This document shows, piece by piece, positions 5,780 through 61,234 of a DNA stretch of 62,105 bases; position 1 is the first letter of the stretch, and every line of letters starts with the position of its first letter. The position numbers were made by a program, and so were the translations under genes. The stretch is taken from assembly GCA_010672585.1 (NCBI GenBank), contig JAAHGF010000037.1, positions 1-62,105 of the forward strand, read 5' to 3'. Source of the stretch: Okeania sp. SIO1I7. Its GTDB lineage: Bacteria; Cyanobacteriota; Cyanobacteriia; Cyanobacteriales; Microcoleaceae. The notes beneath the pieces are model-generated. The model did not search any database, was not told the origin of the DNA, and saw nothing but the letters and a program-made list of their open reading frames with translations.

Positions 5780-5991
5780 TTGTGGTATGGAGAAGTCAGG
5801 AGTCACGAGTTAGGAGAAATGGGAATTACAGAGTATGTAGTGGGAAGAATTGTCCCTTAATTTTTCTGTCCTTGTTTGCACAAAATGTTAATACCCATGA
5901 GCTTTCTTGACCGAAAAGCTGGTACTTTTTTCAACCGAAGAAGGCTGAAATCTTTATATGTCAATACTTTTATAGTTAATCAGCAAGCCCT
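5780..5991. mobile_element. MITE-1 copy, decayed left end
   Basis: The right half is clear (GAATTGTCCCTTAATTTTTC, GAAAAGCTGGTACTTTTTTC, TTAATCAGCAAGCCCT), followed by AATT at 5992. The left end (TTGTGGTATGGAGAAGTC) is a diverged version of the family's TTTGCGTATGGAAAGTC, with AATT at 5776-5779. A short ORF across it (5876-6088) is not a gene. Confidence 0.65.
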
Positions 5992-6081
5992 AATTGCTTC
6001 TAGGGTTCAGGAAAGGGACTTTGACAGCAACTTTTATTCAAACTCAATTTCAAAGGTTACTTTTACCTTTCCCAAAATTAA

Positions 6082-6163
6082 TAGCTGAAGTCCGCAGTTC
6101 CGACCGAGGAGACTAGCTAATAGCTGACGGCTGTTTGCGCAGCATTCCCCAGGAAATGCTTAC
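6082..6163 (-). repeat. Palindromic repeat overlapping a gene end
   Basis: AGCTAATAGCTGACGGCTGTTTGCGCAGCATTCCCCAGGAAATGCTTAC-type repeat, the inverse of the copies at 3611 and 13521. It encodes the last 12-13 residues and the stop of the dynamin-like gene that follows. Confidence 0.7.
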
Positions 6164-7814
6164 CTAAAAATTCCAATTCTTGATTTATTTCTGCTGATAA
6201 ATTATTCAATAACTGTAATTTATTTCTTAACTTAATCGCCTCCGGTGACTGCTGACTAACAGGAACCTTAATCACTTTTTCTGCCTTTTCTTCATATTCC
6301 TCAACTGCTTTTAAAGCTATAGCACTAAAACAACTTAAATAATCTCTAGCCGCATTAGCATAAGCTTGTTTTACCTGCTGCTGATAACTATCTAAATTTT
6401 GTGATTTATTCTGTTTATTATCGCTCAAAAAATAGGTCGCACCACCAGCAACTGCAGCACCCATCGGACCTCCTAATAACCAACCTATTCCAGTGGCGAT
6501 CGCTATATTTTTTACCCCTCCTGATTTTTTGGTTTCTGATGGGGGTGGAGATGGCAAAAAAACTCTAGGAGCTTCAGGGAATGTGATAATTAATTCTGCT
6601 GGTTCTTCTTGTTGAAAAAACTCACAAGCTTTATCTATCCATTCGGTAATTTCTTGTTTATATTTCAGAGCTTCTGGTCGAAATTTTTCGGACTCCCAAA
6701 TATTAAAAGTTCTTTGTTCCAAAACTATAGCCAATTCAAATTGATGGCGCTCTAAAAGTTTAGTTAAATATAGCCAACTTTGGAAATTTAAACTACTTTG
6801 TTGAAAGCCTTGTTTAATTAATTTTTCTGCCCGCTTTTGAATCTCAAATTTTTCACTTTTCTGCTCTTGAATAGCAATTAACTCTTTAGTCACCTCCTTA
6901 GCACTAGCTTCCATGACTTGACATAACTGAGAAGCGACTGTCTGTATTCTTGGTAATTGAATATCTATCTTTTTTCCATGAGTTTCAACAATATTTTGTA
7001 AAGCAGATTCAAAAGTTACTAAACCCGTTGTTTGTGCCACAGAAATATCACCTTTTAACCGACCCCGCAAAGCAGGCAAAGCATCAACTCGATATAAGTT
7101 ACTAATATTATTTGGTAGCTCCGAACGAAAACTTTCTGCTACAAAACGCATTCTATTATCAACTTCTTTTTGTTCGTCTGTCGCGAGTAAGTTCATAAAA
7201 TTAACGACAAAAACTACTGTCTTAATACCTTTTTCCCACAACCAATCTCTGAGATTTTCTCGTTCTCCTAAAGTCATCAAATTTCTGGCATCTAAAACCT
7301 GTACTACTAAATCAGCAGTTAACAATTTATCCTGCACTAAAATATCTTGAGTTTCCTGGTCATTTGTTCCTGGTAAATCTAAGAATTCTACTCCTCTTTT
7401 CAAGAAAGGATGAGGGCAATAAACTTCTACTGAAGTCACATCATCTCGCATTCGACGGTTATTATCTAGCACTGCATATTGTTTGAGAATATCTGTACCA
7501 GTTTCACAAATTTGACTTCCATCTTTCAGATTAATTTTAGTCTGTAACTCTCTGCCATATTTGATAGAAATTGCAGCTCCAGTAGTAGGAATCAAATCAA
7601 TAGGTAATGTACGTTGACCTAACAAAGCATTTAGTAAAGTAGATTTGCCATAATTGAATGGAGCAAAAACAGCAATTTTAAAATTAGGATTTTTGAGATA
7701 TTCACAAATAGAAAATACATCTTTTCTTAGTTGTGACTCTGGCTCAAGTTCTAACATTCCTAGAGCAGAATTAAAATAATTAATTAGATTTTGATAATTT
7801 TCTTGTTGTTGCAT
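6117..7814 (-). CDS. Bacterial dynamin-like GTPase (short form)
   Basis: 565-residue large GTPase. The P-loop is at residues 51-60 (APFNYGKSTLLN), switch I Thr lies in PTTGAAI, and G3 is DLPGTND at 146-152; a hydrophobic VVFVVNFMN strand sits where G4 is expected. Residues 320-420 are mainly helical (stalk), and a glycine/alanine-rich hydrophobic hairpin near 430-460 (IAIATGIGWLLGGPMGAAVA) could be the membrane paddle. Bacterial dynamins remodel or fuse membranes, and paired genes are common in cyanobacteria (family knowledge). A second, longer dynamin lies upstream on the same strand, separated by a 2-kb repeat array, so co-transcription is uncertain. The tail HFLGNAAQTAVSY comes from a palindromic repeat, not the ancestral gene. 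Confidence 0.88.
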   Translation of the reverse strand: MQQQENYQNLINYFNSALGMLELEPESQLRKDVFSICEYLKNPNFKIAVFAPFNYGKSTLLNALLGQRTLPIDLIPTTGAAISIKYGRELQTKINLKDGSQICETGTDILKQYAVLDNNRRMRDDVTSVEVYCPHPFLKRGVEFLDLPGTNDQETQDILVQDKLLTADLVVQVLDARNLMTLGERENLRDWLWEKGIKTVVFVVNFMNLLATDEQKEVDNRMRFVAESFRSELPNNISNLYRVDALPALRGRLKGDISVAQTTGLVTFESALQNIVETHGKKIDIQLPRIQTVASQLCQVMEASAKEVTKELIAIQEQKSEKFEIQKRAEKLIKQGFQQSSLNFQSWLYLTKLLERHQFELAIVLEQRTFNIWESEKFRPEALKYKQEITEWIDKACEFFQQEEPAELIITFPEAPRVFLPSPPPSETKKSGGVKNIAIATGIGWLLGGPMGAAVAGGATYFLSDNKQNKSQNLDSYQQQVKQAYANAARDYLSCFSAIALKAVEEYEEKAEKVIKVPVSQQSPEAIKLRNKLQLLNNLSAEINQELEFLGKHFLGNAAQTAVSY

Positions 7815-44694: not shown

Positions 44695-46041
44695 ATGAAT
44701 CAAAAAAAAGAACACACAATTATGGTGGTCGATAATGAATATCGAAATGCAAATTTAATGTTGAATTTATTAAAAATTTCTGGTTTTAATGTCATCGTAG
44801 TAGAGGATGGGGAAACTGCGATTGAGACAGTAAAAAATGTATTACCAGATTTGATTTTGCTAGATATAATTATGCCAGGAATAGATGGTTTTGAAGTTTG
44901 TAGTTACTTGCAAGCTTCAGAAAGAACTAAAAATATTCCTATTATTTTTATGACTTCCCTTTCTGAATCTGATGAAAAAATCAAAGGTTTAAATTTAGGA
45001 GCTGTAGACTATATTGTTAAACCGTTTAAAGCAGAAGAACTTTTATCTAGAATAAATATACATATACGCTTACAAAAAGAGATAAAAGAACGGACTAAAG
45101 CAGAAATAGAATTGCAAAAATCTGCATCCGTTTTGGAAGATAAAGTACAGTCAAGAACTGCAGAAATTTCTCAATATTTAGAAGAACTTAAAGAAGCTCA
45201 GTTGCAACTAATTCAAAGTGAAAAAATGTCTAATATTGGGGCATTAGTTGCTGGTATTGCCCATGAGTTAAATAATCCAGTTAGTATAGTTGTCGGTAAT
45301 GTTAATTTAGCAGAAACATATCTCACAGCAATTATTAATCACATTAAGTTATATCAAGAACAATTTCCTGAGCCTGGTCTAATAATTGAAAAAGACGCGG
45401 AAGACATGGATATAGATTTTCTGATTGAAGAGCTACCAAAAATCTTATTTTCCATAAAAAAAGCAAGCGCTCGCATCAGCGAAATTAGCGTGTCATTACG
45501 AAGTTTTGCTAGAGCAGATAGTACCTCAAAAGTAGCTTTTGATATTAATGAAGGCATAGATAATACTCTGACAATTTTACAGCATCGACTAAAAGCTAAT
45601 CATCAGCGTCCTGCAATTGAAATTATCAAAAATTATGGAAATTTACCTCAGGTTAATTGTTATCCAAATACCTTAAATCAAGTTTTTATGAATTTGTTAG
45701 TGAATGCAATTGATTCTTTAGAAGAATATAATTATAAAAAATTTCAAACTTATCAAGAAATTCTGCAAAATCCAAATCGGATTACTATTACTACTTCAAT
45801 TATTGAATCTTATGGAGTAGAAATTAGAATAGCTAACAATGGACTGGAAATACTAGAAAATCTAAAAGATCAACTATATGAAGCTTTTGAAAATACCAAG
45901 ACTAACAGTCAAATCAGCAACTTAGGATTATCTATGAGTCACTTAATTATAGTCAATAAACATGGAGGAGAATTGGAATGTAATGCTCTTACTGAAAAAG
46001 GAACAGAATTTGTGATTAAACTACCAAATCAAAAAATATAA
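44695..46041 (+). CDS. REC-histidine kinase hybrid with degenerate ATP site
   Basis: 448 residues. An N-terminal receiver domain (1-125) has Asp13, phospho-acceptor Asp57 in LILLDIIMPGIDG, Thr in MTS and Lys in VKPF. A coiled coil (130-175) follows. The DHp helix carries the phospho-His in GIAHELNNPVS. The CA domain has an N box (QVFMNLLVNAIDSL). The G1 motif is IANNGLEI instead of the DNGxGI seen in its paralogs, and the G2 loop reads TNSQISNLGLSM where they have GKGTGLGLSI. ATP binding is probably weak or absent. It may act as a phosphotransfer or scaffold subunit. Directly upstream of an intact kinase. Confidence 0.9.
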   Translation: MNQKKEHTIMVVDNEYRNANLMLNLLKISGFNVIVVEDGETAIETVKNVLPDLILLDIIMPGIDGFEVCSYLQASERTKNIPIIFMTSLSESDEKIKGLNLGAVDYIVKPFKAEELLSRINIHIRLQKEIKERTKAEIELQKSASVLEDKVQSRTAEISQYLEELKEAQLQLIQSEKMSNIGALVAGIAHELNNPVSIVVGNVNLAETYLTAIINHIKLYQEQFPEPGLIIEKDAEDMDIDFLIEELPKILFSIKKASARISEISVSLRSFARADSTSKVAFDINEGIDNTLTILQHRLKANHQRPAIEIIKNYGNLPQVNCYPNTLNQVFMNLLVNAIDSLEEYNYKKFQTYQEILQNPNRITITTSIIESYGVEIRIANNGLEILENLKDQLYEAFENTKTNSQISNLGLSMSHLIIVNKHGGELECNALTEKGTEFVIKLPNQKI

Positions 46042-46290: not shown

Positions 46291-48126
46291 ATGTTAAACT
46301 TAAATTATACATTACTGAACTTCAAAAAATTAAAAATGTATGATTTAACTCAATTTAGTCTTAGAGATATGTCTGAATGTGGGCTAGTTTTACGCCAATT
46401 AGGAAAAAGCTCTCATACAACAGAAGAGGTAAGCAATAGGATTATTAAGTATCTTTATGAAAATCTAATTAGTAAAGATATTAAAGAAAAATCCTGTGTA
46501 TTAATCCGTATGTTTCAGACTATTCCATATAAACAACTCAGCTACGAACTACAAGAATATGCTTCTACATTATTAAATAATCAATCAGTCACTCCTGATT
46601 TAAAATGCTTAACCTTGCTGAGTACTGCTGGGGAAAAACCAGAATGGAATTTACGACAAAAATCTTCTGGACACAAAGCAATTCCTTTAGCAAATAAAGC
46701 AGCGATCGCTAAAATTCCTATGATATCAAGGCTAATTCAACAATTAGGATTAGAACCTAGTCAAGTGGTAGAAACAGACCTAAATTTATTGGCTGATTTA
46801 GAGCAAAAAATGTACAACGTATTTTATGTAGCTGATGCCTTGGGTAGCCCTTATATTCCAGCACAAAAATCATTTGTAATTCCTTTTAATATTAAATCTG
46901 TAATCGGATTTGGAGGTTTATTACCTTCAGGAAATATGTTTGTAGTTTTAATGTTTTTAAAAGTAAAAGTACCAAGAGAGACTATTGATTTATTAAAACC
47001 ATTAGCACTAAGTGTTAAGATAGCACTTTTGCCCTTTGACCAAGGTAAAATTTTCTCATCTAGCCAAAGTAAAAATCGAACAATTAATCAGAGCGAACTA
47101 AAAGATAAAGATAAAATTATTGAACAGCTTCAATCAGAAAATGCCACATTACATCAGTTATTAGATGTATCAGGAAAATCCACATTAATTCAATCTGACC
47201 GTTTAGAAAAAGCAATTGCCGAACAGCAAAAAACCCTAGAAAAACTACAGACAACCCATGCTCAATTACTACACACAGAAAAAATGTCTAGCTTAGGACA
47301 AATGGTAGCTGGTGTTGCCCATGAAATTAACAATCCAATTAACTATATTCGTGGAAATATTACTCCAGCTCAAGAATATGTTCAAGACATACTAGAATTG
47401 CTAGAAATGTATCAGCATAAATTTCCTCATCCTACACCAGAAATTCAAATTAAAATAGCAGAAATTGACCTAAATTTTATTAAGAAAGACCTCAATGAAG
47501 TTATCAGGTCTATGGAGATAGGTACAGAAAGAATTTATGAAATAATTAAGTCAATGCGAAACTTTTCTCGGTTTGAAAAAGCAGAATTTAAACAAGTTGA
47601 TGTTCGTGAAGCAATAGACAGTACATTGATGCTTTTAGATAGCCGGATGAAAGCAACAACTTCTTCCCCAGAAATTAGGCTTATAAAAGAATATCAAGAA
47701 TTACCATTAGTGGATTTTTATGCTGGTCAACTTCATCAGGTATTGATGAATATTTTGAGTAATGCTATTGATGCATTGGATGAATATAATGAAAAGCGCA
47801 CACCAGAAGAAGTTAGGAAAAATCCGAGTCAAATAAAAATTTGTACTAAAATTTTAAATAAAAAGTGGGTAGTAATCTCGATTGCAGACAATGGTTTAGG
47901 TATGGCTGAAGAAGTGAGCAAAAAATTATTTGATTCTTTCTTTACAACTAAATCTTCAGGAAAAGGAACTGGATTAGGGTTATCTATTAGTTATCAAATT
48001 GTTGTGGAAAAACATGGCGGTAAATTATTGTGTTATTCTCAACCTGGAAAGGGAGCAAAGTTTATAGTTCAGATTCCTATTAGGCAGAAAATTAATCAAG
48101 TAGTATCTTCAACAATTAACAATTAA
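46291..48126 (+). CDS. Sensor histidine kinase with unknown N-terminal domain
   Basis: 611 residues from ATG 46291; an internal ATG (46336, MYDLTQFSLRDMSECG) is also plausible. Residues 15-250 are a sensory region I do not recognise, soluble, with repeated hydrophobic strands (YIPAQKSFVIPFNIKSVIGF). Then a coiled coil (260-325), DHp with the phospho-His in GVAHEINNPINY, and a complete CA domain: N box VLMNILSNAIDALDEY, G1 ADNGLGM, F box FDSFFTTK, G2 GKGTGLGLSI. Kinase competent. The upstream gene has the same DHp core but a degenerate ATP site. The end is repeat-adjacent (AACAATTAATAATTAATAAT). Confidence 0.92.
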   Translation: MLNLNYTLLNFKKLKMYDLTQFSLRDMSECGLVLRQLGKSSHTTEEVSNRIIKYLYENLISKDIKEKSCVLIRMFQTIPYKQLSYELQEYASTLLNNQSVTPDLKCLTLLSTAGEKPEWNLRQKSSGHKAIPLANKAAIAKIPMISRLIQQLGLEPSQVVETDLNLLADLEQKMYNVFYVADALGSPYIPAQKSFVIPFNIKSVIGFGGLLPSGNMFVVLMFLKVKVPRETIDLLKPLALSVKIALLPFDQGKIFSSSQSKNRTINQSELKDKDKIIEQLQSENATLHQLLDVSGKSTLIQSDRLEKAIAEQQKTLEKLQTTHAQLLHTEKMSSLGQMVAGVAHEINNPINYIRGNITPAQEYVQDILELLEMYQHKFPHPTPEIQIKIAEIDLNFIKKDLNEVIRSMEIGTERIYEIIKSMRNFSRFEKAEFKQVDVREAIDSTLMLLDSRMKATTSSPEIRLIKEYQELPLVDFYAGQLHQVLMNILSNAIDALDEYNEKRTPEEVRKNPSQIKICTKILNKKWVVISIADNGLGMAEEVSKKLFDSFFTTKSSGKGTGLGLSISYQIVVEKHGGKLLCYSQPGKGAKFIVQIPIRQKINQVVSSTINN

Positions 48127-50596
48127 TAATTAATAATTAATAATTACCTCTCCTTGAAAAGAAGAGGATTGACTAATCATGAAAATTTTTTCTTGTTTCT
48201 CCTTTAAAGGAAAAACTTTAAACTTTAATTATTCGGTAGATTAAGTAAATCAACTCAAGATTCAAGCATTGAAATTAAATTACTTCTGGTAATCTTTCCC
48301 CGATGAACTCCCTCTTTTCCACTTCCCACACTCGACTCCTGAATGAGAAATTATAGTTACTGAATGTAGCTGAAGACAAAACCCTTTTGAGCAGCATTTG
48401 ATCGAAATTATATTAGTTATAATTTAAAGTTAAATATATCTTTCAATAATGAATAATGAATAATTAATAATTAATAATTACCTCTCCTTGAAAAGAAGAG
48501 GATTGACTAATCATGAAAATTTTTATTTATTATCCCCTTTTAAGCTATCTCTTATCAGGAACTCCTGAAAACCTTGTAAGGAGTGTGGGGGGCAAAAATC
48601 TTGTCTACAGTTCTCAAAAAAATGTATTTTTCAATAGACTTTTCTCCTAAAAAAGTCGCTCCAAGACCTACACATAACTTATCTATAATGTCTACGTTTT
48701 ATGTTAAGAAAAATGTTGATAAAGCATAGCCTTTTAAGGGGATAAAAAGTGGTTGTTTGCTTTTGCTTCGCAAAACTGGCGTAACGCAACGCTGACGCGA
48801 AACGCGACAGCGGAACGGAGTTCTCTCTTCGTAGCTTCCCGTAGGGTGGGATGGCGAGGTCTCCTCGCCATATCCAATCGACCAAGAGAAAAGAGAATAT
48901 TCCTGATGTCAACCCTCCTTATTGCAGAGGTACTGAAGTCCGTAGTTCCTCCGGGGAGGCTAACTGATAACTGAAATGACCTAACTCCTCACTAAGTTAT
49001 TTATAAGTATTCAACCGAACACTGAGCAAAAAAATCAGGTCTCAAGTCTCTCCTTTGAAGGGAATAAAAAAGAAAATTCTGTATCTTCTTGCCTCCTTAT
49101 TGCAGGAGGAAATTATAGTGCAGCTTCTCTGTAAAGAGGCTAAGTGAAGTCCGCAGTTCCTCCGGTAGAAGGCTAATACCAATTTGATAAATGTTTTCTA
49201 AATTTTCGCATTGCGGGGGAGTAGGAGACCCACCCCTAGACCCTCCCCCTCCCAGGAGGTAGGGTCTATTTATTGTCACGCGAGCGAAAAAGGGAGTAGG
49301 GGAGTAGGGGAGCGGGGGAGTAGGGTCTATTTATTGTCACGCGAGCGAAAAAGGGAGTGGGGGAGTGGGGGAGTAGGGGAGTAGGGGAGTAGGGGAGTAG
49401 GGGAGTAGGGTCTATTTATTGTCACGCGAGCGAAAAATTGTATCCTTTGAAATTTCGTACATCTTGCTAGGATTAGTTAACCAAAAATATAGAGTTCAGG
49501 ACTTACGCAAAGACACTACATATAGTAGATAAAAACTATAGCACTATGGTATATATAGCGCTGTGTCCAGGCAACAGGAGGAATAAAAAACCGATAATAT
49601 CAGATTTTTAGCTATTGGACAGTTTTTGTAATTTGTAAATATGCCAACGCACATTGCTATATAGTGTTTAAACCCATGAAAATGCGTAATTCCTGGAGTT
49701 GTAAATATTCTCCCCAGGCAAAGAATTAGCCCTGGGGAGACGGGGGGATGGGGAGATGGGAGATGGAGATATTTGTATATTTGCACAATTAAATGTACTT
49801 CATATTAATATTCTCCCCAGGCAATGAATTAGCCCTGCTCCCAGGAGGGGAATAGGGGGAGAAGTAAACATAAGAATAATTAAGAATAACTGGCTAATAA
49901 TTATCAAAAAAAATATTCAGACTGTGTTAATCAATTAATAATTGAAGTATCACTTAAGTTAAGCATTCTTTTTTTTTAATTGGTATAACTGAAATGACTA
50001 ATTGGAGACTGAGAAATAATTATTTAATGGAATATGATACAACCTATCTCATGTCTATTTAATTAGCAAACAAAAACTTTCTCTTACCGAATAATTAAAG
50101 TTTAAAGTCTCTCCTTTAAAGGAGAAAAAAGAAAAAAAAAATCCTACCGCGTCAATCCTCTTGTTTTCAAGCAGAGGTAATTATTAATTATTAATTATTA
50201 ATTGTTGAATATATTTATTTATCCCTCTATACCTGGTGTCCTCTATTATAAATCTCCAAAAAAGAATATGAAACCCTGATTATTTCTAGGTGAAAATCTA
50301 ATTTATGGAGATGTCTATTACTGTTTATTGATAAGTATTTAACCGAATATGATATTATAGCAATAGCAAATAATTTATAAAAAATCTAAGGATACATAAA
50401 AACTCTAAAACTTTTATTCCTATTCCCTCTTTTGGTGCCCGTTCCCTTGCCTCTTTTGCCGACGCTGGGTCGCACCACTGTTCCCGAAATTCAAAGATAT
50501 TTTTACTCGCAACTGAAATAGGGTTGCTATATATACTTTGAACTCAGAGTATCAAAAAAATTAATTTGAAAGCTAAATTTTCAAGCATTACCAGAA
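48127..50596. other. 2.5-kb intergenic desert of repeats
   Basis: Family-S repeats lie at about 48127-48242 and 48465-48900, the second split by a segment containing TGCTTTTGCTTCGCAAAACT and CTTCCCGTAGGGTGGGATGG. A GAAGTCCG(T/C)AGTTCCTCCGG palindromic-repeat end follows (48940-48965, 49146-49175), then the 30-bp repeat cluster (49261-49436). CTCCCCAGGCAA(A/T)GAATTAGCCCTG duplicates are near 49710 and 49812. MITE-2 and family-S ends (49180, 49965, 50085-50185) and MITE-3 (50245-50312) complete it. No gene seen. Confidence 0.6.
49261..49436. repeat. Three 30-bp repeats separated by GGGAGTA runs
   Basis: Copies at 49261-49290, 49322-49351 and 49407-49436 (each AGGGTCTATTTATTGTCACG then CGAGCGAAAA) are identical. 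Separators of 31 and 55 bp are only GGGAGTAGG / GGGAGTGGG low complexity. Not a CRISPR array. Confidence 0.85.
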
Positions 50597-53509
50597 ATGA
50601 AAAATCAAACAACCACAAATAAAAAAATTCAGAAAGTTAGGCGAGATTATAACTCCTGGGTAGCAACAGAAACATTAGAAGACTATGCCTTACGTTTTGC
50701 CCCTAAATCTTTTAGAAAGTGGTCAGAATTTCTAGTAGCAAATACTGCTATTGGTGGAACTTCTTTTTTAGCTTTAGAAGCTATTGGTGGTTCAATTGCG
50801 ATTAGTTATGGTTTTGCTAATTCTTTCTGGGCAATTTTAACTGTAGGGATAATAATTTTTCTGACTAGCTTACCTATATCCTATTACGCATCTAAATATA
50901 ATATTGATATGGATTTGCTAACTAGAGGAGCAGGTTTTGGTTATATTGGTTCCACAATTACTTCTTTAATTTATGCCTCTTTTACCTTTATATTTTTTGC
51001 TCTAGAAGCAGCAATTATGGCTCAAGCTCTAGAGTTATATTTTCACCTACCTTTATACCTTGGCTATTTAGTCTGTTCCATAATAATTATTCCCCTTGTA
51101 TTTTTTGGAGTAACTGTAATTAATCAACTGCAAATTTGGACTCAACCAATCTGGTTAAGTTTAATGATATCTCCCTATATTTTTATTCTTTATAAAGAGC
51201 CAAATGCTTTATCAAATTGGTTTAATTTTGCAGGTAGATCGGTCAGTGGTGCAGAATTTAATCCACTTTTATTTGGAGCTGCAGCAACAGTTTCTTTTTC
51301 TTTAATTCCTCAAATTGGCGAACAGGTAGATTATCTCCGCTTTCTGCCAGATAAACAAAAAAATAATCAGATTAAATGGTGGTTAGCGATGATTTTAGCC
51401 GGACCTGGTTGGATAATTATTGGTGTTGCCAAACAATTAGGAGGTGCATTTTTAGCTTCCATTGCTGTTAGTCATGGAGTTAGTTTTGCTAAAGCTACTG
51501 AGCCAATACAAATGTATTTAGTAGGATTTACTGAGATATTTGATGACCCAAAAATTGTCTTAATAATAGGAACTCTATTTGTAATTATTTCTCAGATAAA
51601 AATTAACGTTACTAACGCTTATGCAGGTTCTTTAGCTTGGTCAAACTTCTTTTCTCGATTAACTCATAATCATCCTGGTCGTGTTGTTTGGCTAATTTTT
51701 AATGTGGCGATCGCTCTAGTTTTAATGGAGTTAAATGTATTTGCTACTTTAGAAGCAATATTAGGATTATATTCTAATGTAGCGATTGCTTGGATAGGAG
51801 CATTAGTTGCCGATCTTGTAATTAATAAGCCGTTAGGAATTAGCCCTTCTTACATTGAATTTAAACGAGCTTATCTACATAATATTAATCCTGTTGGTTT
51901 TGCCTCAATGCTGATTGCTTCAGCAGTATCAATGACTGCTTTTTTAGGAGTATTTGGCTCTGTTGCTCAAGCTTATTGTGGTTTTATTGCCTTGGTTTTA
52001 GCATTTATTCTTGCTCCGATAATTGCCATTATTACCAAAGGTAAATACTATATTGCCAGAGAAAATAAATATAGAAAAATCAATCTTGATGACACAATCG
52101 AATGCTGTATTTGTAATCAGAAATATGAACAGGAAGACATGGCATACTGTCCTGTTTATCAAGGTTCAATTTGTTCTTTATGTTGTAGCTTAGATTCCCA
52201 TTGTCGCGACCGCTGCAAAGAGACTACTACAGCATTAACTCCCATAACTGAAAAACCGTTACTTACCATTGCTCGGAAAATTATCTCGACTAAATTTTCC
52301 CCACAATTAGGATTAAGAGTGGTTAAATTTTCAGGTATTTTTATGTTTATTTCTGGGTTAGTAGGATTAATATTTGGAGTCATTTATTATCTCGATATAT
52401 CTCAAGATTTAGGGGCTAATTCACAGTCACGACTAATCACCCTAGTAAAATTATATTTTCCTCTATTGTTATTAATTGGTATAGGAAGTTGGTGGTTAGT
52501 ATTGACTGAAGAAAGTCGAGATTTAGCCTTAGAAGAACTTAACTCTCAAAATTTACAACTCGAACAAGAAATTAAACAGCGCCAAGAAGTAGAAAATTCC
52601 CTGCGAAAATCTCAAACTAAATTAAAAGAACAAACTCAACAGCTTCAACAAACTTTAGAGGAATTAAAACAAAAAGAAGCTCAGTTAATTCAAACAGAAA
52701 AAATGTCTAGTTTGGGGCAATTAGTAGGAGGCGTTGCCCATGAAATTAATAATCCCGTGAGTTTCATTTATGGCAATCTAGACTTTATATATGAATATAC
52801 TAAACAATTACTAACCTTAGTAGAACTTTATCAACAATATTATCCAGAACCAAAAGTAGAAATTGAAGAATATATTGAGGAGATAGATTTAGAATTCTTG
52901 AAAGAAGATTTATCTAAAATTATTTCATCAATGACAGTAGGAGCAACTCGCATTCGTCAAATAGTTCAATCTTTACGTAACTTTTCCCGCCTTGATGAAT
53001 CAGAATTAAAAACAGTTGATATTCACGAAGGTATTGATAGTACTTTATTAATTCTCAACAACCGATTAAAATCTCAATCTAATAGTTCTGCTATTGAAGT
53101 TATTAAAAATTATGCTCAACTTCCTTTAATTAATTGCTATCCTGGTCAACTTAATCAAGTATTAATTAATATTATTAATAATTCCATTGACTCCATAAAT
53201 GAATACAATCAAAAGCCAACTTCTTTAAATATTCAAGATTACTCTGGCATCATTCAAATTCGTACTAAAGTTTTAGAGCATAATTGGGTAGAAATTTCTA
53301 TTGCAGATAATGGTACTGGTATTAAACCAGAGATACTAAATAAATTATTCGATCCCTTTTTTACAACTAAACCAATAGGTAAAGGAACAGGTTTAGGACT
53401 ATCTATTAGTTATCAGATTATTGTGGAAAAACATCAGGGTAAACTCTTCTGTATTTCCACACCAAATAATGGTGTAGAGTTTATCATTCAGATTCCAATC
53501 AAACAGTAA
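50597..53509 (+). CDS. NCS1 nucleobase permease fused to histidine kinase
   Basis: 970 residues. Residues 20-480 form an NCS1 (purine/cytosine/hydantoin-type) permease: DYALRFAPKSFRKWSEFLVA at the start, GTSFLALEAIGGSIAISYGF, TRGAGFGYIGSTI, about 12 hydrophobic spans. Residues 503-540 are a Cys-rich Zn-finger-like cluster (CxxC at 503-506, C518, CxxC at 526-529, C530, C536, C540). Two more membrane spans follow (about 576-598, 618-637), then a coiled coil (640-698). The kinase has H715 in GVAHEINNPVS, N box near N861, G1 ADNGTGI (D904) and G2 GKGTGLGLSI (928-937). It should sense or import a nucleobase-like compound. Hydrolase genes follow. Confidence 0.93.
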   Translation: MKNQTTTNKKIQKVRRDYNSWVATETLEDYALRFAPKSFRKWSEFLVANTAIGGTSFLALEAIGGSIAISYGFANSFWAILTVGIIIFLTSLPISYYASKYNIDMDLLTRGAGFGYIGSTITSLIYASFTFIFFALEAAIMAQALELYFHLPLYLGYLVCSIIIIPLVFFGVTVINQLQIWTQPIWLSLMISPYIFILYKEPNALSNWFNFAGRSVSGAEFNPLLFGAAATVSFSLIPQIGEQVDYLRFLPDKQKNNQIKWWLAMILAGPGWIIIGVAKQLGGAFLASIAVSHGVSFAKATEPIQMYLVGFTEIFDDPKIVLIIGTLFVIISQIKINVTNAYAGSLAWSNFFSRLTHNHPGRVVWLIFNVAIALVLMELNVFATLEAILGLYSNVAIAWIGALVADLVINKPLGISPSYIEFKRAYLHNINPVGFASMLIASAVSMTAFLGVFGSVAQAYCGFIALVLAFILAPIIAIITKGKYYIARENKYRKINLDDTIECCICNQKYEQEDMAYCPVYQGSICSLCCSLDSHCRDRCKETTTALTPITEKPLLTIARKIISTKFSPQLGLRVVKFSGIFMFISGLVGLIFGVIYYLDISQDLGANSQSRLITLVKLYFPLLLLIGIGSWWLVLTEESRDLALEELNSQNLQLEQEIKQRQEVENSLRKSQTKLKEQTQQLQQTLEELKQKEAQLIQTEKMSSLGQLVGGVAHEINNPVSFIYGNLDFIYEYTKQLLTLVELYQQYYPEPKVEIEEYIEEIDLEFLKEDLSKIISSMTVGATRIRQIVQSLRNFSRLDESELKTVDIHEGIDSTLLILNNRLKSQSNSSAIEVIKNYAQLPLINCYPGQLNQVLINIINNSIDSINEYNQKPTSLNIQDYSGIIQIRTKVLEHNWVEISIADNGTGIKPEILNKLFDPFFTTKPIGKGTGLGLSISYQIIVEKHQGKLFCISTPNNGVEFIIQIPIKQ

Positions 53510-54309
53510 TTTAGTCTAAAGTCTTTTGGTTAGTGCTTATTATTGGTAATATTCTTTTTTCATGTTTGGTATAACAAATATTTATTAAATAAAATTTATA
53601 GGATAAAATTGAAATTTTGATACAGCAGATTCCACTTTTGTGAAGTACATTCATCGCGGGTAAGATGCCCGCACTTGCATTCATTTAATTGTTAAATATT
53701 TGTACTTCTTATACTTGGAATATACTGTATCTCTCCAATAATCAGAAGTGACAAAAAAAATTATTGTTGTTTAAAATTTTTAATCCCTCAATCTACCATA
53801 CAAACATTTGAAAATAAAAATCGTAAGCATTTCCTGCGGAATACTGCGCAAACAGCAATAAGACTTTCCCCTTAAAGGCAGTGTTTAAATGAATATATAC
53901 TTTAAGCTCAAGGTAGCTGACTTTCATAGTAATATCATGTCCGGTTGAACAGTGATAAATAAATAACTACCGAGGAGTCAGGAGTCAGGAGTCAGGAGGG
54001 AAGAAATGAAGAAGGAAGAGGAAGAATAGGACAAGAAGAAGAAAGTTTTTTTATAACTAATTATCCGGACATGATATAAGATTTAATTGTAGCTAAATTA
54101 ATAAGCTTTGATCGCGCACTAAAAACAATAGCTGATAGCTGAATGCTGAATGCTGAATGCTTACTAAAAATCAACCAAACAATAATAGGGAAATTAAAAA
54201 AATCTTAAGTAATACAACTAATAATATACTATCGACGAAAATGAAAAAGAAAATATAAAAATTATCTATGCTATTAGTAATTTGATAGATAAATTCACCA
54301 GATAATATT
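53510..54309. other. Intergenic repeats before the hydrolase gene
   Basis: MITE-2 end at 53518-53575, hairpin GCGGGTAAGATGCCCGC at 53656-53672, and a palindromic repeat at 53823-53857. A MITE with 13-bp inverted repeats lies at 53932-54077, and an AGCTGAATGCTGAATGC run at 54133-54162. No gene. Confidence 0.6.
53932..54077. mobile_element. MITE-5 (ATATCATGTCCGG inverted repeats)
   Basis: Perfect 13-bp terminal inverted repeats ATATCATGTCCGG / CCGGACATGATAT enclose 120 bp of purine-rich low complexity (GAGGAGTCAGGAGTCAGGAG, AGGAAGAATAGGACAAGAAG). Single related ends occur near 3555 and 60108. Confidence 0.75.
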
Positions 54310-55080
54310 ATGCAAAATTTATCTCTTGAAACTCTAGGTATACCACCTAATGCGTGGGAAGTTGATGAAACAACAGCAGATATTACTCGTCCTCCTCTTC
54401 CTGCTAAACCCATTGTCATCAAAACAGAAACCAAAAGCATTAAATTAGATTTAGCCAAAACAGCAATTCTAATTATAGATATGCAAAATGACTTCTGTCA
54501 TCCTGACGGTTGGTTAGCTCATATTGGTGTAGACGTTACACCTGCAAGGTCTCCCATTCAACCACTAATAAATTTCTTACCACAATTGCGATCGCAAAAC
54601 GTCCCGATAATTTGGTTAAACTGGGGAAACCGTTCCGACCTACTGAATATTAGCGCTGGGTTACGCCATGTGTATAACCCTACTGGGAAAGGTATAGGTT
54701 TAGGCGACCCACTACCAAAAAATAACGCCCCCGTACTCATAGAAGGAAGTTGGGCAGCAGCAGTTGTGGATGAGTTGGAGCAACAAGTAGGAGATATTCG
54801 CGTGAGTAAATATAGGATGAGTGGGTTTTGGGATACTCCCCTTGATAGCATCCTGCGAAATATTGGCAAAACAACTCTCTTATTTGCAGGAGTGAATGCA
54901 GACCAATGTGTAATGGCAACATTACAAGATGCAAATTTCCTTGGTTATGACTGCATTTTAGTTTCAGACTGCACTGCCACTACTTCCCCTGAATATTGTT
55001 GGCAAGCTACTATTTATAATGTGAAACAATGTTTTGGGTTTGTCACAAATTCTCATGCTATTTTAGAAGCTATTAATTGA
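54310..55080 (+). CDS. Cysteine hydrolase, isochorismatase family
   Basis: 256 residues. The catalytic triad is visible: Asp in LIIDMQNDFCHPDG, Lys in VSKYRMSGFWDTPLD, Cys in AGVNADQCVMATLQDA. The cis-peptide region (GVNADQC) and FGFVTNSHAIL at the end fit ureidoacrylate/biuret/N-carbamoyl amidohydrolase relatives (RutB and similar). It has a 50-residue N-terminal extension (LETLGIPPNAWEVDETTAD) also seen in larger members. It probably cleaves an amide or ureido bond to release ammonium or carbamate. Next to an NCS1 permease-kinase, a ring-opened nucleobase or hydantoin product is a reasonable guess, not proven. Confidence 0.9.
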   Translation: MQNLSLETLGIPPNAWEVDETTADITRPPLPAKPIVIKTETKSIKLDLAKTAILIIDMQNDFCHPDGWLAHIGVDVTPARSPIQPLINFLPQLRSQNVPIIWLNWGNRSDLLNISAGLRHVYNPTGKGIGLGDPLPKNNAPVLIEGSWAAAVVDELEQQVGDIRVSKYRMSGFWDTPLDSILRNIGKTTLLFAGVNADQCVMATLQDANFLGYDCILVSDCTATTSPEYCWQATIYNVKQCFGFVTNSHAILEAIN

Positions 55081-55521
55081 AGAAGGAAGAAGGAAAAAGA
55101 AAGAAGGAAGAAGGAAGAAGGAAAAATTGCTTATGGATAGTCAAAGATCGGCCACTTCCTATCTTATCCAAACAATTTTAAGCACCCTCTTTGACGGTGG
55201 GGTATTAAACCCATAAAAGAAAAGATAATATATATTTTTCTGAAAAGTTTCATGTTCAGTTAAATATTAATTACAAAAAATTGGCACTTTGTAGCTGTGG
55301 TTAAAAAGATACAAAATTCAACAATATATAAGTTAAGAAAATCCAAAAAAATCAAGGTAAAACAAAAAGTCAAATTGCCAATTTTTTTTATTTATTTCTC
55401 GATAAAAACCATGATTATTAATGCCAATATGAGTAGCTATGATGTCACTGGTGTCTAAGCAAAGCTCAAACTAAATAATCGATAATTTCCTGAATAAGTT
55501 AACACTATTACCTATAAAAAA
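55081..55521. other. Intergenic, pyrimidine/purine microsatellite
   Basis: An AGAAGGAAGAAGG run at 55081-55125, then the repeat motif CACCCTCTTTGACGGTGGGG-TATTAAACCC near 55180-55215 (also at 56330-56360). No gene. The ATG at 55522 has no strong Shine-Dalgarno. Confidence 0.5.
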
Positions 55522-55965
55522 ATGATTAGTCAATGCATGATTCCAGTCCTTAAGTCTCCCCAAGATTATCAAGCATATCGTATTAGTCCCCATGATAGTA
55601 ATCGATTAGCAATTATTTTCGACCCTGTAATTGCCAATGCTTCTTTAACTGTATGTTTAGAAATTTTTGATGTGGGGGGAAAAACTCCTCCAAATCGACA
55701 TAATTTAGCGGTAGAAATGTTCTTTATTATTAAAGGAGAAGGAAGGGCAATATGTGATGGAAAATCTGTTAATATTCGTGCTGGTGATAGTATTCTAGTA
55801 CCACCAACAGGGATTCATGTCATAGAAAATACTGGCTTAACTCGTCTCTATACTTTATGTATTATGGTGCCAAATGAAGACTTTGCCGAACTAATTCGTA
55901 GTGGAATACCAGTAGATTTAGACGAAGAAGATATGCAAGTTCTTTCTCGCTCAAGTTGTATTTAA
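55522..55965 (+). CDS. Cupin-domain protein
   Basis: 147 residues, single small beta-barrel. Cupin motif 1 is NRHNLAVEMFFIIKGEG (metal-ligand His/Glu candidates) and motif 2 is GDSILVPPTGIHVIEN. Family members bind a divalent metal and act as isomerases, dioxygenases or small-molecule binders. It shares orientation with the cysteine hydrolase upstream and CocE-like hydrolase downstream. It could be a metabolic enzyme or sensor of the same pathway. An internal ATG at 55537 is an alternative start. Confidence 0.85.
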   Translation: MISQCMIPVLKSPQDYQAYRISPHDSNRLAIIFDPVIANASLTVCLEIFDVGGKTPPNRHNLAVEMFFIIKGEGRAICDGKSVNIRAGDSILVPPTGIHVIENTGLTRLYTLCIMVPNEDFAELIRSGIPVDLDEEDMQVLSRSSCI

Positions 55966-56950
55966 GAAGGAAGAAGGAAGAAGGAAGAAGGAAGAAGAAA
56001 TAAGGAAAAAAGGTGGATTGGGACTCAAAGTTCAACAAGCGTTTCAACAATTAATTAGGGTTTGCTGAAAAAGTCTGATGGTGATGATAGGCAACAGGGA
56101 ACAGGCAACGGGCAACAGTTTAGACTATCTGCTACGGCAAAATTTTCGGCATTGTCAGGGGAAAAGTATTAGCATTTTGAGACTACAACAACCAAAAACC
56201 TTGCACCCCCTCAGCAATATTTAACCCTGGAAGCCTTGACAGGTAATGATTACAATTTTATTCAGCAAGCCCTAATTATTAATTATTAATTATTAATTAT
56301 TAATTATTAATTATTAATTATTAATTAGTAAACACCCTGTAGATTGCGGGGTATTAAACCTAAAATAAAAAGATAATTTTTGATATAGCAACTACCATTA
56401 TTACTTTTGACTTATGGAATATCTAAAACAACAGTATATCAATAATCAACCTTCTATCCTAGATGACTAAACGCCTTTTTTATTCTCCTATAAAAAAGGA
56501 AGACAAAAGAAGAAAATATTACCCAAAATACCAGTTCCCCAATTCTATTTTTTCTGTTCCCTTTTGCCAAAAATTAAAATGAAAAATTTATATTATATCT
56601 GCTTAATTAGCACTCAAAAATATTTTGATTTCTATCCTCCGTTATATCAATTGCGTGTGAAGCTACACAGAATTATGAAACTTATTACTTGTCTGTATTT
56701 ATCTACAGTAAACTTGAAAGAATAAAAGATAAAAAAAATATTTTGATTCAATCCTCTTATTTTAAAAGATAGGTAATAGTTAACAATTAATTATTAATTG
56801 TTGAACTTCTTCTTTACCGAAAATTTGGGTTTAAAATCTCCCCTTTTAAGGGGATAAAAAAGAAAATTATGCATTTTCTTGCCTCTCTATTTCAGGAGGC
56901 ACTGTTAACTGATAACTGATAACTGAATTGAACTACTCCCTACTCCCAAA
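55966..56950. other. Intergenic: MITE-1, microsatellite, family-S repeat
   Basis: AGAAGGAAGAAGG run (55967-55998), MITE-1 (56057-56273), AATTATTAATT microsatellite (56274-56328) and a CACCCTGTAGATTGCGGGGTATTAAACC motif. A family-S repeat lies at 56750-56905 (ATCCTCTTATTTTAAAAGAT, TCTCCCCTTTTAAGGGGATA). No gene. Confidence 0.6.
56057..56273. mobile_element. MITE-1 copy, 217 bp, TSD AATT
   Basis: AGGGTTTGCTGAAAAAGTCT at the left, TTATTCAGCAAGCCCT at the right, AATT both sides. The interior is diverged and resembles 20598-20807 (ACTATCTGCTACGGCAAAAT, GGCATTGTCAGGG), so these two form a subfamily. Confidence 0.85.
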
Positions 56951-58606
56951 ATGAAAGTATTACCCAAAGAAACAGCTTCAATATTTACCAGAGATAAAAT
57001 ACGTCTAGACGCTGATATTTATCGCCCTGATGCAGAGGGTGAATTTCCAGTACTATTAATGCGACAACCTTATGGCAGATCGATCGCCTCCACAGTAGTC
57101 TACGCTCATCCAAAATGGTATGCTTCCCATGGTTATATTGTGATTATTCAAGATGTAAGAGGTAGAGGTACATCTGAAGGAGAATTTCAACTATTTACCC
57201 ATGAAATTGAAGATGGAATTGATACTATTAATTGGGCAGCAAATTTACCAGGTAGCAATGGCAAAATAGGAATGTATGGATTCTCTTATCAAGGCATGAC
57301 TCAACTATATGCTGCTAGTGCTAAACCTCCCGCTTTAAAAACAATTTGTCCTGCTATGATTGCCGATAATTTATATTCAGAATGGGCTTACGAAGGAGGA
57401 GCATTTCGTTTACAAACAAACTTGGGTTGGGCAATTCAACTAGCAACAGAAACTGCCCGTTTACGAGGAGATGAACAAGTTTATCAAGAACTTTATCAAG
57501 CTGCTAAAAATTTGTCTTTTTCGACTCCAATTCCTGCTTTATCGGAAGTAATGAATAAGTATGCACCAGACTCTTTTTATCATCAATGGTTAGAACAAGA
57601 CCGACCTGGTGAATATTGGCAAAATCTGTCACCAAATTTAGAAAATATAGACCTACCAATGTTACATATTGGTGGTTGGTTTGATACCTATTTACGAGGT
57701 ACAATTAATTTGTATCAAAAAATATCTTGTCGTAGTAAATTCCTACAAAAATTAATAGTAGGTCCTTGGTCTCATATTCCTTGGGGAAGAAAACTAGGAA
57801 CTATAAATTATGGTTTAGTCGCTTCTAACCCCATAGATGATATACAAATATTATGGTTCGACCAATTTCTCAAAGGAATAAATACAGGAATATTAGAGCG
57901 ATCGCCTGTTTCTTTATTTGAGATGGGAAGTAACGAATGGCGTAATTTTGATTCCTGGCCGAGTAATAATTATCAGTTCTATTATTTAGCTAGTACAGGA
58001 CTTGCGAATATGAGAGAAGATTCAGGGAAACTCAACGATAATTGTCCTGATATTTCTACTGATGATATATTCGTACATGACTCTTGGCGACCCGTTCCAG
58101 CATTAGGCGGTCATGCCACATTTCCAGCAGGTTCTTTTGAACGTTCAGAATTAGATTGTCGTACCGATATTTTGACTTATACTTCTGAATTTTTAACAGA
58201 AGATTTACACATAGCTGGAGATATTTATCTAGAAGTATATTGTACAGCAGATACCAGTAGTTTTGACCTTTCAGCTGTGTTATCTGAAGTTAAACCAAAC
58301 GGCAATGTTTATAATTTTACCCAAGGTTATATCAAGGTTGTTTCTAACAATCTACCAGTGAAAATATCTTTACAACCAACTTGTATAAAAATTGAGAAAG
58401 GTAATGCTATTCGACTAAGTTTAAGTGCAGCTTCTTTTCCTGCATATTTAATTAATCCTGGCATAGATAAACCACCAAAAGAAGTACGATTAATTGACGC
58501 AAAAATTATTACTATAACTGTTAGTTCAGGAAAAAATAATCCTTCACGAATTTCTTTATCTACAGCAGGAAACAGGGAACAGGAGGGAAAACATTCCCCT
58601 GTCTGA
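56951..58606 (+). CDS. CocE/NonD (X-Pro dipeptidyl-peptidase) family hydrolase
   Basis: 551 residues. The alpha/beta-hydrolase nucleophile is Ser112 in MYGFSYQGMTQ. The N-terminal MRQPYGRSIASTVVYAHPKW, VIIQDVRGRGTSEG and GWFDTYLRGTINLY (Asp candidate) match the CocE/NonD family. A C-terminal jelly-roll domain (DLHIAGDIYLEVYCTADTSS onward) is complete. No signal peptide, so probably cytosolic. Members act on esters or amides of diverse small molecules (cocaine esterase and beta-lactam acylases are known examples). Fourth same-strand gene after the NCS1-kinase; likely part of the same catabolic theme. Confidence 0.92.
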   Translation: MKVLPKETASIFTRDKIRLDADIYRPDAEGEFPVLLMRQPYGRSIASTVVYAHPKWYASHGYIVIIQDVRGRGTSEGEFQLFTHEIEDGIDTINWAANLPGSNGKIGMYGFSYQGMTQLYAASAKPPALKTICPAMIADNLYSEWAYEGGAFRLQTNLGWAIQLATETARLRGDEQVYQELYQAAKNLSFSTPIPALSEVMNKYAPDSFYHQWLEQDRPGEYWQNLSPNLENIDLPMLHIGGWFDTYLRGTINLYQKISCRSKFLQKLIVGPWSHIPWGRKLGTINYGLVASNPIDDIQILWFDQFLKGINTGILERSPVSLFEMGSNEWRNFDSWPSNNYQFYYLASTGLANMREDSGKLNDNCPDISTDDIFVHDSWRPVPALGGHATFPAGSFERSELDCRTDILTYTSEFLTEDLHIAGDIYLEVYCTADTSSFDLSAVLSEVKPNGNVYNFTQGYIKVVSNNLPVKISLQPTCIKIEKGNAIRLSLSAASFPAYLINPGIDKPPKEVRLIDAKIITITVSSGKNNPSRISLSTAGNREQEGKHSPV

Positions 58607-60313: not shown

Positions 60314-61234
60314 TCAATTATTTTTTGACGACTTAACGTGCTTAACTAATAATCGAGCGATCGCTTCGAGTTGCTTATGATTAAAACTTTTAATAATTAA
60401 TTTAACTACTTCTTTAGGGTCTTTTGGCAAAGTTACTTTTTTCTGCTCAGAAGCCTTTGCTATTTCCTTAAGGTCTTGACTCGCCACTATTTCCTGTACT
60501 TTTCCTGCTTGGATCAACTCACCTGCTTGATTAAGTTCTTTAATAATTACAGGAGCTAGAATTTGATAAGACAACTTAGAACTAGCGATCGCCTGTCGAG
60601 AATATGTAACTAAAGTCTTCCAAATTTCTGTATTTTCATCCAACTTCAACAAACCATTACAAACCTCTGTAAGCTGTTTTCTAGAATCAGGAGAATCAGC
60701 TTGTTTAAACACCTCCAACATTTCTTTTAACTTACTTTTAACTTGTTGAGCAAATTTAGATTTAGATAGTGTCTTCCCATTTCCAACAGCAGTAGATTGA
60801 GAAACAGTACCACCACCCACTAAAGTATTCAAATTAGTTTCTAATTCTGAAAATAGAGGCAAAGCATTATCAACAATTTCTTGTCCCTCTTCTTCCCTCA
60901 AACCATAGGGACCTTGCAGACGTTCTACTAACTCTTTGAGAGTATCATATCCTTTTAAAAATTGAGACTCTACTGTTTGGTCAATATCAACAGGATTTTC
61001 GCGGATTATTTTGAAACAATCTTCTAAACGGTGAGCTACCTTTTGTACACTGTGCATTCCTAACATAGCAGCCCCACCTTTTACAGAATGAGCTGCTCTA
61101 AACATATCATTAATAGTTTCAGAATCTGACATTGTAGACTTCAAATCTACCAACCCATTTTCTAGAGTAACTAAATGTTCTTCTGCTTCTAATATAAATA
61201 ATTGTTTAATCCGATCGTCTTGTTCTGATGACAC
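60314..61234 (-). CDS. Hpt-domain phosphotransfer protein
   Basis: 306 residues. The N-terminal Hpt domain has the phospho-His at residue 49 in FRAAHSVKGGAAMLGM, preceded by IKQLFILEAEEHLVTLENGL and followed by VQKVAHRLEDCF. No CheA kinase, CheW or receiver domain follows; the remaining 180 residues are helical and unassigned (SKFAQQVKSKLKEMLEVFKQ onward). It resembles the N-terminal part of cyanobacterial CheA-like (PixL/PilL type) proteins as a separate protein. A stand-alone Hpt can relay phosphate between hybrid kinases and response regulators. Several kinases lie upstream in this window but no regulator gene, so a link is only possible. Confidence 0.9.
   Translation of the reverse strand: MSSEQDDRIKQLFILEAEEHLVTLENGLVDLKSTMSDSETINDMFRAAHSVKGGAAMLGMHSVQKVAHRLEDCFKIIRENPVDIDQTVESQFLKGYDTLKELVERLQGPYGLREEEGQEIVDNALPLFSELETNLNTLVGGGTVSQSTAVGNGKTLSKSKFAQQVKSKLKEMLEVFKQADSPDSRKQLTEVCNGLLKLDENTEIWKTLVTYSRQAIASSKLSYQILAPVIIKELNQAGELIQAGKVQEIVASQDLKEIAKASEQKKVTLPKDPKEVVKLIIKSFNHKQLEAIARLLVKHVKSSKNN

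Follow-up and report, generated by a model that had tools for sequence, protein, structure and literature searches.

A sensor histidine kinase of Okeania with a divergent NCS1-like input domain, read as a probable receptor for urea or short-chain amides

We analysed a 62,105-nt stretch of DNA from the cyanobacterium Okeania sp. SIO1I7 (contig JAAHGF010000037.1 of assembly GCA_010672585.1; hereafter, the window) and focused on an open reading frame (ORF) at positions 50597-53509 of its forward strand that starts with ATG, has no internal stops and encodes a protein of 970 residues. This protein joins an NCS1-like membrane domain to a complete sensor histidine kinase, and we read it as a probable receptor for urea or short-chain amides. 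Urea and formamide rank among the important small sources of nitrogen, and the way bacteria detect them outside the cell is, to our knowledge, poorly known. A previous reading of the letters of this stretch (the original prediction) had described a single 970-residue frame composed of a permease-like domain, a Cys-rich module, two helices and a complete kinase. Indeed, this frame proved intact, with the following layout (window positions, strand and, in brackets, the evidence).

50597..53509, + strand: sensor histidine kinase with NCS1-like input domain, 970 residues (ORF, HisKA and HATPase matches, kinase motifs)
50597..52066, + strand: NCS1-like (LeuT-fold) membrane domain, residues 1-490 (AlphaFold2 model, Foldseek matches to CodB and Mhp1, NCS1 profile alignment; no Pfam family)
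50774..50779, + strand: residues L60-E61 of transmembrane helix 1 (TM1), the position pair that splits sensors (E61) from stand-alone permeases (D60) (family alignment)
51593..51616, + strand: TM8 motif Q333-x-K335-x-N337-x-T-N340 (CodB profile alignment, family conservation)
52094..52222, + strand: Cys module, residues 500-542, with eight invariant Cys, possibly zinc-finger-like (alignments, model, Foldseek, Pfam)
52301..52513, + strand: two extra long (membrane) helices, residues 569-639 (AlphaFold2 model)
52526..52702, + strand: probable coiled-coil linker, residues 644-702 (judged from sequence; weak CREPT match)
52712..52999, + strand: HisKA dimerisation/phospho-acceptor domain, H715 (Pfam, motifs)
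53147..53503, + strand: HATPase_c domain with N, G1, F and G2 boxes (Pfam, motifs)

A Pfam scan placed HisKA at residues 706-801 and HATPase_c at residues 851-969, both over the cut-off, and all five kinase boxes were found in the window protein: the H box SSLGQLVGGVAHEINNP at 704, the N box NQVLINIINNSID at 853, G1 (DNGTGI) at 904, F (FDPFFTTK) at 918 and G2 (GTGLGLS) at 930. The original prediction had listed H, N, G1 and G2, to which the F box is now added; the five boxes together with both domains identify a two-component sensor histidine kinase. Functional look-ups of its kinase domain returned generic kinases only, and promoter- and terminator-like matches near the gene were about as frequent as in shuffled sequence. 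An AlphaFold2 model of residues 1-640, built on an input alignment of 41 sequences, reached a pLDDT of 85 and a pTM of 0.86, and contained a transporter-like helix bundle up to about residue 479 and long helices at 569-603 and 609-639, consistent with the two further membrane spans previously proposed. A frameshift artefact joining two genes near residue 500 is excluded, because 144 fusion-type frames, and two Okeania genomes besides this one, have the same continuous fusion.

Pfam recognised nothing in the first 500 residues of the window protein or in the input domain of 41 family members. The PF02133 profile in particular had no match in residues 1-500 or in any of these 41, even with E allowed to reach 10, and it scored 0 matches throughout the Okeania genome, with positive E. 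coli and B. subtilis controls; no NCBIfam model came over the cut-off for the input domain. The SSF (SLC5) profile had no match in the window protein either, its eight matches in this genome all lying elsewhere, none on the kinase-bearing contig (C41). A Foldseek search of the PDB with the predicted model returned CodB at rank 1 (E 2.3e-9, TMt 0.76) and Mhp1 at rank 2, followed by sodium/solute symporters (SSS) from 7e-6, which makes the input domain, on this predicted model, a LeuT fold nearest to CodB and Mhp1. Profile alignment with hhalign against 13 cyanobacterial PF02133 proteins was collinear over 396 columns (E 3.6e-4), with a probability of only 36.9% and 23% identity, and the control against 11 SSS proteins gave E 0.24 over 50 columns; these sets represent 13 of 14 NCS1 and 11 of 12 SSS loci, one of each having been dropped for want of a usable frame. 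Further, a urease-linked stand-alone homologue from Klebsiella, 42% identical to the window domain, matched PF02133 at 1.1e-9, over the cut-off, and a stand-alone relative from Methylovirgula had no PF02133 match. On the strength of the predicted fold and this PF02133-positive homologue, we read the input domain as a divergent NCS1 branch that no Pfam model recognised. The NCS1-type assignment originally made is thereby upheld by predicted fold and transitive homology despite the lack of a PF02133 match, as is the likening of the protein to transporter-kinase fusions of the CbrA kind.

The family is widespread. A scan of species genomes uncovered at least 575 stretches encoding relatives of residues 1-638, the best 80 of which, from Cyanobacteria, Pseudomonadota, Campylobacterota and Fidelibacterota, were kept as loci. 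The fusion was present in 12 of 292 evenly drawn cyanobacterial genomes. An even draw of 398 Pseudomonadota genomes had it in 52 at E <1e-100, seed genome included, and weaker matches only in 10 more. Plasmid records with a match to the family amounted to 537. In PLSDB, 342 Klebsiella plasmid records match it, and the one that we opened, L294 (IncFIB/IncFII), has formamidase and urtABCDE genes alongside. Annotations in the records examined name the family kinase ATP-binding protein, response regulator or even ArcB. Scoring of 77 fusion-type C-termini from the best 80 loci yielded HisKA in 66, HATPase in 66, receiver in 46, GGDEF in nine and EAL in seven. A Campylobacterales locus (L049, 10025-13657) has the same input domain joined to PAS-GGDEF-EAL, the latter two being enzymes of cyclic di-GMP (c-di-GMP), and a gammaproteobacterial one (L028, 9905-12130) encodes 741 residues comprising the input domain without a recognised output, beside FmdA and Urt genes. 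The input domain of 22 other fusion members was 51-80% identical to that of the window protein; the kinase halves of the same 22 were 53-59% identical to the window's in four cyanobacteria and 18-34% in 15 members, cyanobacterium L020 included, and gave no significant alignment in the remaining three (L028, L049 and L066). As judged from these comparisons, the input domain is the conserved unit, whose outputs (kinase, hybrid kinase or GGDEF-EAL) have been swapped.

We then scored the gene neighbourhoods of the fusion in Pseudomonadota, for which 56 of the 57 places with a strong match were fetched (up to 20 kb, seed genome left out), along with 40 control regions situated 40-60 kb away on the same contigs. 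Genes were counted by tblastn at 40% identity over half the query; the query proteins were drawn from the best 80 loci, so that the 80-locus and 56-locus sets may share species. Pfam confirmed the FmdA, regulator, UrtDE, UrtC, UrtA, AmiE and FmdB representatives and gave no match for the porin-like one. At least one urea/amide gene (Urt-type, FmdA, AmiE or urease) occurred in 53 of the 56 loci and in one of the 40 controls (nominal Fisher p 3.6e-22), the three misses being L241, L214, which runs into a contig end, and L249, whose contig is 4,779 bases long. Two or more UrtABCDE-type genes were found in 44 loci, FmdA in 35, AmiE in 18 and either of the latter two in 37, all against 0/40 in the controls, and urease alpha in 9/56 loci versus 1/40 controls. 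The nearest urea/amide gene lay upstream and on the opposite strand in 49/56, and a same-strand response regulator followed the kinase in 33/56. Individual records illustrate this arrangement: in Paraburkholderia, genes for an fmdB-like zinc ribbon, formamidase and urtEDCBA diverge from the kinase and regulator; the Klebsiella plasmid L294 reads formamidase-urtEDCBA-kinase, and Methylosinus urease-urtEDCBA-kinase-regulator; Methylovirgula carries formamidase, kinase, regulator, a stand-alone permease and an aliphatic amidase; and in the Methylophilaceae locus L046 the kinase, the regulator, one unlabelled ORF, a porin-like gene and UrtABCDE-type genes stand in a row on one strand.

Within the best 80 loci, several of which are shortened by contig ends, a urea/amide gene was present in the three cyanobacterial loci with a stand-alone permease only (3/3), in one of the pair L048 and L080, and in 33 of the 48 loci that remain once these and the lineages discussed below are set apart. 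Co-occurrence was also evident at the genome level in cyanobacteria: of 292 genomes, 12 have the fusion, 18 a full-length formamidase and six both (p 1.7e-5), the two counts being taken as one 292-genome draw as judged by shared handles. Counted by genus, formamidase is present in 4/9 fusion-bearing genera against 12/116 overall (p 0.0065). In the six co-occurrences, the two genes lie ~1 Mb apart or on different contigs.

We read eight stand-alone copies (L020, L043, L045, L051, L089, L091 and those of Methylovirgula and Klebsiella), made up of the permease and the Cys module with no output domain, and all eight are near formamidase, amidase or urease genes; in the annotated frame of the Klebsiella copy, the Cys set is incomplete. 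This Klebsiella copy, the gene at 5941-7548 of the chromosome-sized record L293, is annotated as a cytosine permease and located after urease genes; it is a family member and a candidate urea permease. A tree of 70 chosen rows, which is unrooted and in which Klebsiella and the L091 fusion sit on long branches, split the eight permeases from 62 fusions by one branch with support 100/99. The same split is seen in the alignment, where positions 57, 60, 61, 138, 175, 343 and 347 are fixed or nearly fixed differently in fusions and permeases: at 60-61, all 143 readable fusions have L, M or I followed by E, and the permeases have D followed by F or Q (6/6, plus both further copies). A ninth, remote homologue, L250 (G575:C40:97993-99342; 28% identical, in a 552-residue open frame), might bridge the family to NCS1 and was excluded from these residue counts.

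Seven residues, K335, N337, N340, Q239, E242, Q243 and E137, do not vary among 144 fusions and six permeases. In CodB, T278 and T279 are sodium ligands and N280 is a potential water-mediated cytosine contact, as described in the parts of the structural report drawn on here (PMC9379551). By the profile alignment, with pairings made by eye, K335 and I336 align with these two threonines and N337 with N280, so that the two-Thr Na2 sodium site of CodB is not kept in the window domain. Of the two halves of the CodB pi sandwich, F204 pairs in the same alignment with an aliphatic residue at position 237 and W108 with F133 (F in 115/144 and L in 29/144); CodB S206 pairs with the invariant Q239. A pairing of N337 with Mhp1 N318 was dropped, as the latter stands against CodB N282, whose counterpart in the window protein is T339. 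A lysine in the Na2 site is also described for CbrA (K196) in the extracts available of its report (PMC13022988). These substitutions suggest that the core binds a small polar amide, not an aromatic ring, and makes no use of Na+ at Na2.

Between the membrane bundle and the kinase, the window protein has nine Cys in residues 503-540 and not eight as initially counted; the Cys-rich cluster itself stands, since eight of them (C503, C506, C518, C526, C529, C530, C536 and C540) are invariant in 41/41 aligned relatives and each of these positions is Cys in all 143 readable fusion-type rows of the larger set. In the AlphaFold2 model the module is small and beta-rich (~500-532), and together with the two long helices it fills the region between transporter and kinase, where no four-helix bundle is modelled. 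Many of its 50 best Foldseek matches are RING, PHD, FYVE or ZZ zinc fingers, none of them significant (best E 0.37), and Pfam gave weak matches at best. The modelled module thus resembles such fingers without statistical significance, and its eight invariant Cys may form a zinc finger, in which any metal would have a putative role. Because the stand-alone permeases have the module as well, it is no adaptor specific to the kinase, and it may act as a gate on the cytoplasmic side.

The Okeania copy keeps all alignment-invariant residues and the sensor signature E61, and its residues 1-540 are 96-97% identical among Okeania genomes. A second sensor copy in the same genome, on contig C78 (L114, 5537-6657, minus strand), is decayed: it covers residues ~325-693 in a broken frame and is flanked by unrelated genes. 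The further features of the window that surround the kinase gene are the following, the three + strand genes downstream being neighbours not shown to belong to the system.

44695-46041, same strand as the fusion: receiver-HisKA-HATPase protein, ending ~4.5 kb upstream of the fusion kinase
46291-48126, same strand as the fusion: second upstream histidine kinase
49275-49437: 8-nt-period GGGGAGTA array, intergenic
53932-54077: 32-nt inverted repeat between the kinase and isochorismatase genes
54310..55080, + strand: isochorismatase-fold hydrolase (PF00857), RutB/biuret-hydrolase-like, below both curated cut-offs
55522..55965, + strand: Cupin_2 protein (PF07883)
56273-56333: TAATTATTAATTAT array, intergenic
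56951..58606, + strand: CocE/NonD hydrolase (Peptidase_S15/PepX_C, TIGR00976)

The cysteine hydrolase, cupin and CocE-like genes predicted downstream are all three on the strand of the kinase. The successive gaps between the kinase, isochorismatase, cupin and CocE genes measure 800, 441 and 985 bp, and repeats lie inside the 800- and 985-bp ones, the two inspected for them, so that an operon is not evident. All three genes are found alongside the fusion not only in the window but also in L013 and L025, from two more Okeania genomes, a linkage that is uninformative because the whole region is collinear there at 91-97% identity. None of the three was found in the 56 sampled Pseudomonadota loci, and within the best 80 loci the isochorismatase and CocE genes are confined to these two Okeania loci. 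A cupin relative, 70% identical, occurs in one further locus, the cyanobacterial L051, three genes from a stand-alone permease-formamidase-FmdB group, a single case that could tie the cupin to amide use. At a looser cut-off, an isochorismatase-like ORF appeared in Methylococcaceae L071 and a CocE-like ORF in Vibrio L048. On this neighbour count and inspection of the gaps, an operon of the neighbouring hydrolases with the kinase was rejected. The window had also been said to lack a response regulator, which the receiver domain in ORF 44695-46041 corrects; no regulator lies directly beside the kinase gene. The two upstream kinases have kinase halves 44% and 51% identical to that of the fusion, and dozens of other genes of the genome are about as close. 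An Hpt-domain protein encoded near the window end (60314-61234, minus strand) is a possible phosphotransfer partner.

Collectively, these data point to a transceptor-type sensor kinase with an NCS1-derived receptor for urea or short-chain amides, a reading to which we give a probability of roughly two in three. An ancestral NCS1-branch permease for such compounds would have turned receptor; ligand bound in the transporter core would shift the position of the membrane bundle, and this shift would be relayed via the eight-Cys module (possibly zinc-binding), the two extra membrane helices and the coiled coil to switch kinase activity, the direction of signalling being presumptive. In Pseudomonadota, the response regulator, often encoded next door, would control the divergently oriented genes for UrtABCDE-type uptake, for formamidase or amidase, or for urease. 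The Okeania protein would be an orphan kinase, probably reporting urea or amide to a regulator encoded elsewhere, with target genes that are likewise presumptive; its assignment, ligand included, comes by orthology and co-occurrence, not from its own neighbours. A broader proposal is tentative, and we hold it at slightly under even odds: that these proteins form a large unannotated receptor class for urea and short amides, arisen by a single ancient permease-to-sensor conversion within NCS1, whose mark is the one-step move of an acidic residue in helix 1 (D60 to E61) in a protein whose former sodium site holds a Lys; that the receptor signals via a zinc-finger relay and was later connected to histidine kinases, to hybrid kinases and to enzymes of c-di-GMP; and that they are the missing inducer sensors of fmd/urt regulons.

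Several observations weigh against a urea/amide receptor. Within the best 80 loci, a urea/amide gene was found in only one of 13 cyanobacterial fusion loci (L020) and in none of the 10 Campylobacterota, one Fidelibacterota and three Thiotrichaceae (Pseudomonadota) loci, and none of the labelled urea/amide genes is near the remote stand-alone homologue L250. The Okeania genome itself yielded no full-length formamidase match; what it does have is a short protein of the FmdA family at C31, and UrtA at C24, off the kinase contig. The p-values given above are too small because related species are not independent samples, and the CodB residue pairings come from a profile alignment at 23% identity, to which hhalign assigns a probability of 36.9%. 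Finally, the window kinase half is only 18-34% identical to most other members compared, and its coupling to the input domain may therefore differ.

Other explanations were weighed against the same evidence. The original prediction had envisaged a transport-coupled sensor of a nitrogenous ring compound broken down by the three neighbours, of which a nitrogen compound as the likely signal is supported and a ring broken down by these genes is not. A sensor of uracil, hydantoin, allantoin or biuret coupled to the adjoining isochorismatase, cupin and CocE genes would suit the cytosine or hydantoins carried by characterised NCS1 relatives, and the isochorismatase-fold enzyme is indeed nearest to RutB and biuret hydrolase models, far below their cut-offs. 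However, these genes come together in Okeania only (0/56 sampled loci), so that outside this genus the neighbour tabulation gives the result that the original prediction had named as refuting it; they are separated by gaps of 441-985 bp, two with repeats, and one of the two aromatic contacts of CodB gives way to an aliphatic residue in the profile alignment, all of which renders this explanation very unlikely. That the kinase senses the state of the Urt ATP-binding cassette (ABC) transporter, or ammonium, with the NCS1 domain as a protein-interaction platform, would explain the close Urt linkage as a protein partnership, but five loci (L043, L045, L051, L020 and L293) show a stand-alone permease linked to formamidase or urease genes and no Urt gene, and the core residues are invariant; we regard it as distinctly improbable.

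The invariant core residues, being common to the stand-alone permeases, also speak for a variant that overlaps our reading, namely a true dual-function transceptor whose fused domain also transports urea or amide, with flux rather than occupancy setting the kinase. CbrA offers a precedent: its SLC5 domain, which has a Lys in the Na2 site, is reported to be able to take up histidine (PMC13022988). The seven fixed differences from the stand-alone permeases speak against this variant, as do the two or more genes of a separate ABC uptake system near 44/56 Pseudomonadota loci, and we deem it rather unlikely. As to the Okeania copy, it might be an orphan under drift that has changed its ligand or lost its function, in line with the absence of cognate genes from the stretch read around it and with the decay of the second copy in the same genome; yet its family-invariant residues and kinase motifs are all intact and the identity of residues 1-540 between Okeania genomes is high, and we hold drift to be improbable. 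Under the preferred reading of an NCS1-derived urea/amide receptor, the permease/receptor pairs, which differ at seven (nearly) fixed positions, make the conversion of a transporter into a sensor directly testable.

Transporter-kinase fusions as such are already known, among them CbrA, CrbS, RpuS and the ammonium transporter kinase of Kuenenia. What appears to be new here is the NCS1 branch, the eight-Cys module, the urea/amide assignment, the breadth of the family and the clean residue switch between receptor and permease; we found no description of such a urea/amide sensor in the open-licence PubMed Central literature. The fmdCABDEF cluster of Methylophilus methylotrophus is induced by formamide and urea; the only regulator that the part of the report drawn on names there is a putative positive one, encoded in the cluster, with no mention of a sensor kinase in the membrane (PMC10781810). 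The Kuenenia ammonium sensor histidine kinase likewise combines a membrane transporter domain with a kinase for a small nitrogen compound but, in the sections available, differs in its Amt domain and ammonium ligand (PMC5764959). The nearest solved folds are those of CodB and Mhp1, to whose NCS1 family the window domain has a collinear profile alignment of low probability, with CodB N280 opposite the invariant N337 (PMC9379551, as far as the source was available). Relative to CodB, the profile alignment puts Lys and Ile in place of the Na2 threonines and an aliphatic residue in place of F204; relative to both structures, the window protein adds the Cys module and a signalling output, and PF02133 does not recognise it. 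CbrA of Pseudomonas, an SLC5-STAC histidine kinase, is likewise a transporter domain fused to a histidine kinase and, by the excerpted account, also has a Lys at its Na2 site (K196; PMC13022988). It differs in belonging to SLC5 rather than to an NCS1 branch and in carrying STAC where the window protein has the eight-Cys module and two helices, a contrast drawn on the predicted model; and, unlike CbrA, the family described here is linked in Pseudomonadota to genes for urea and amides.

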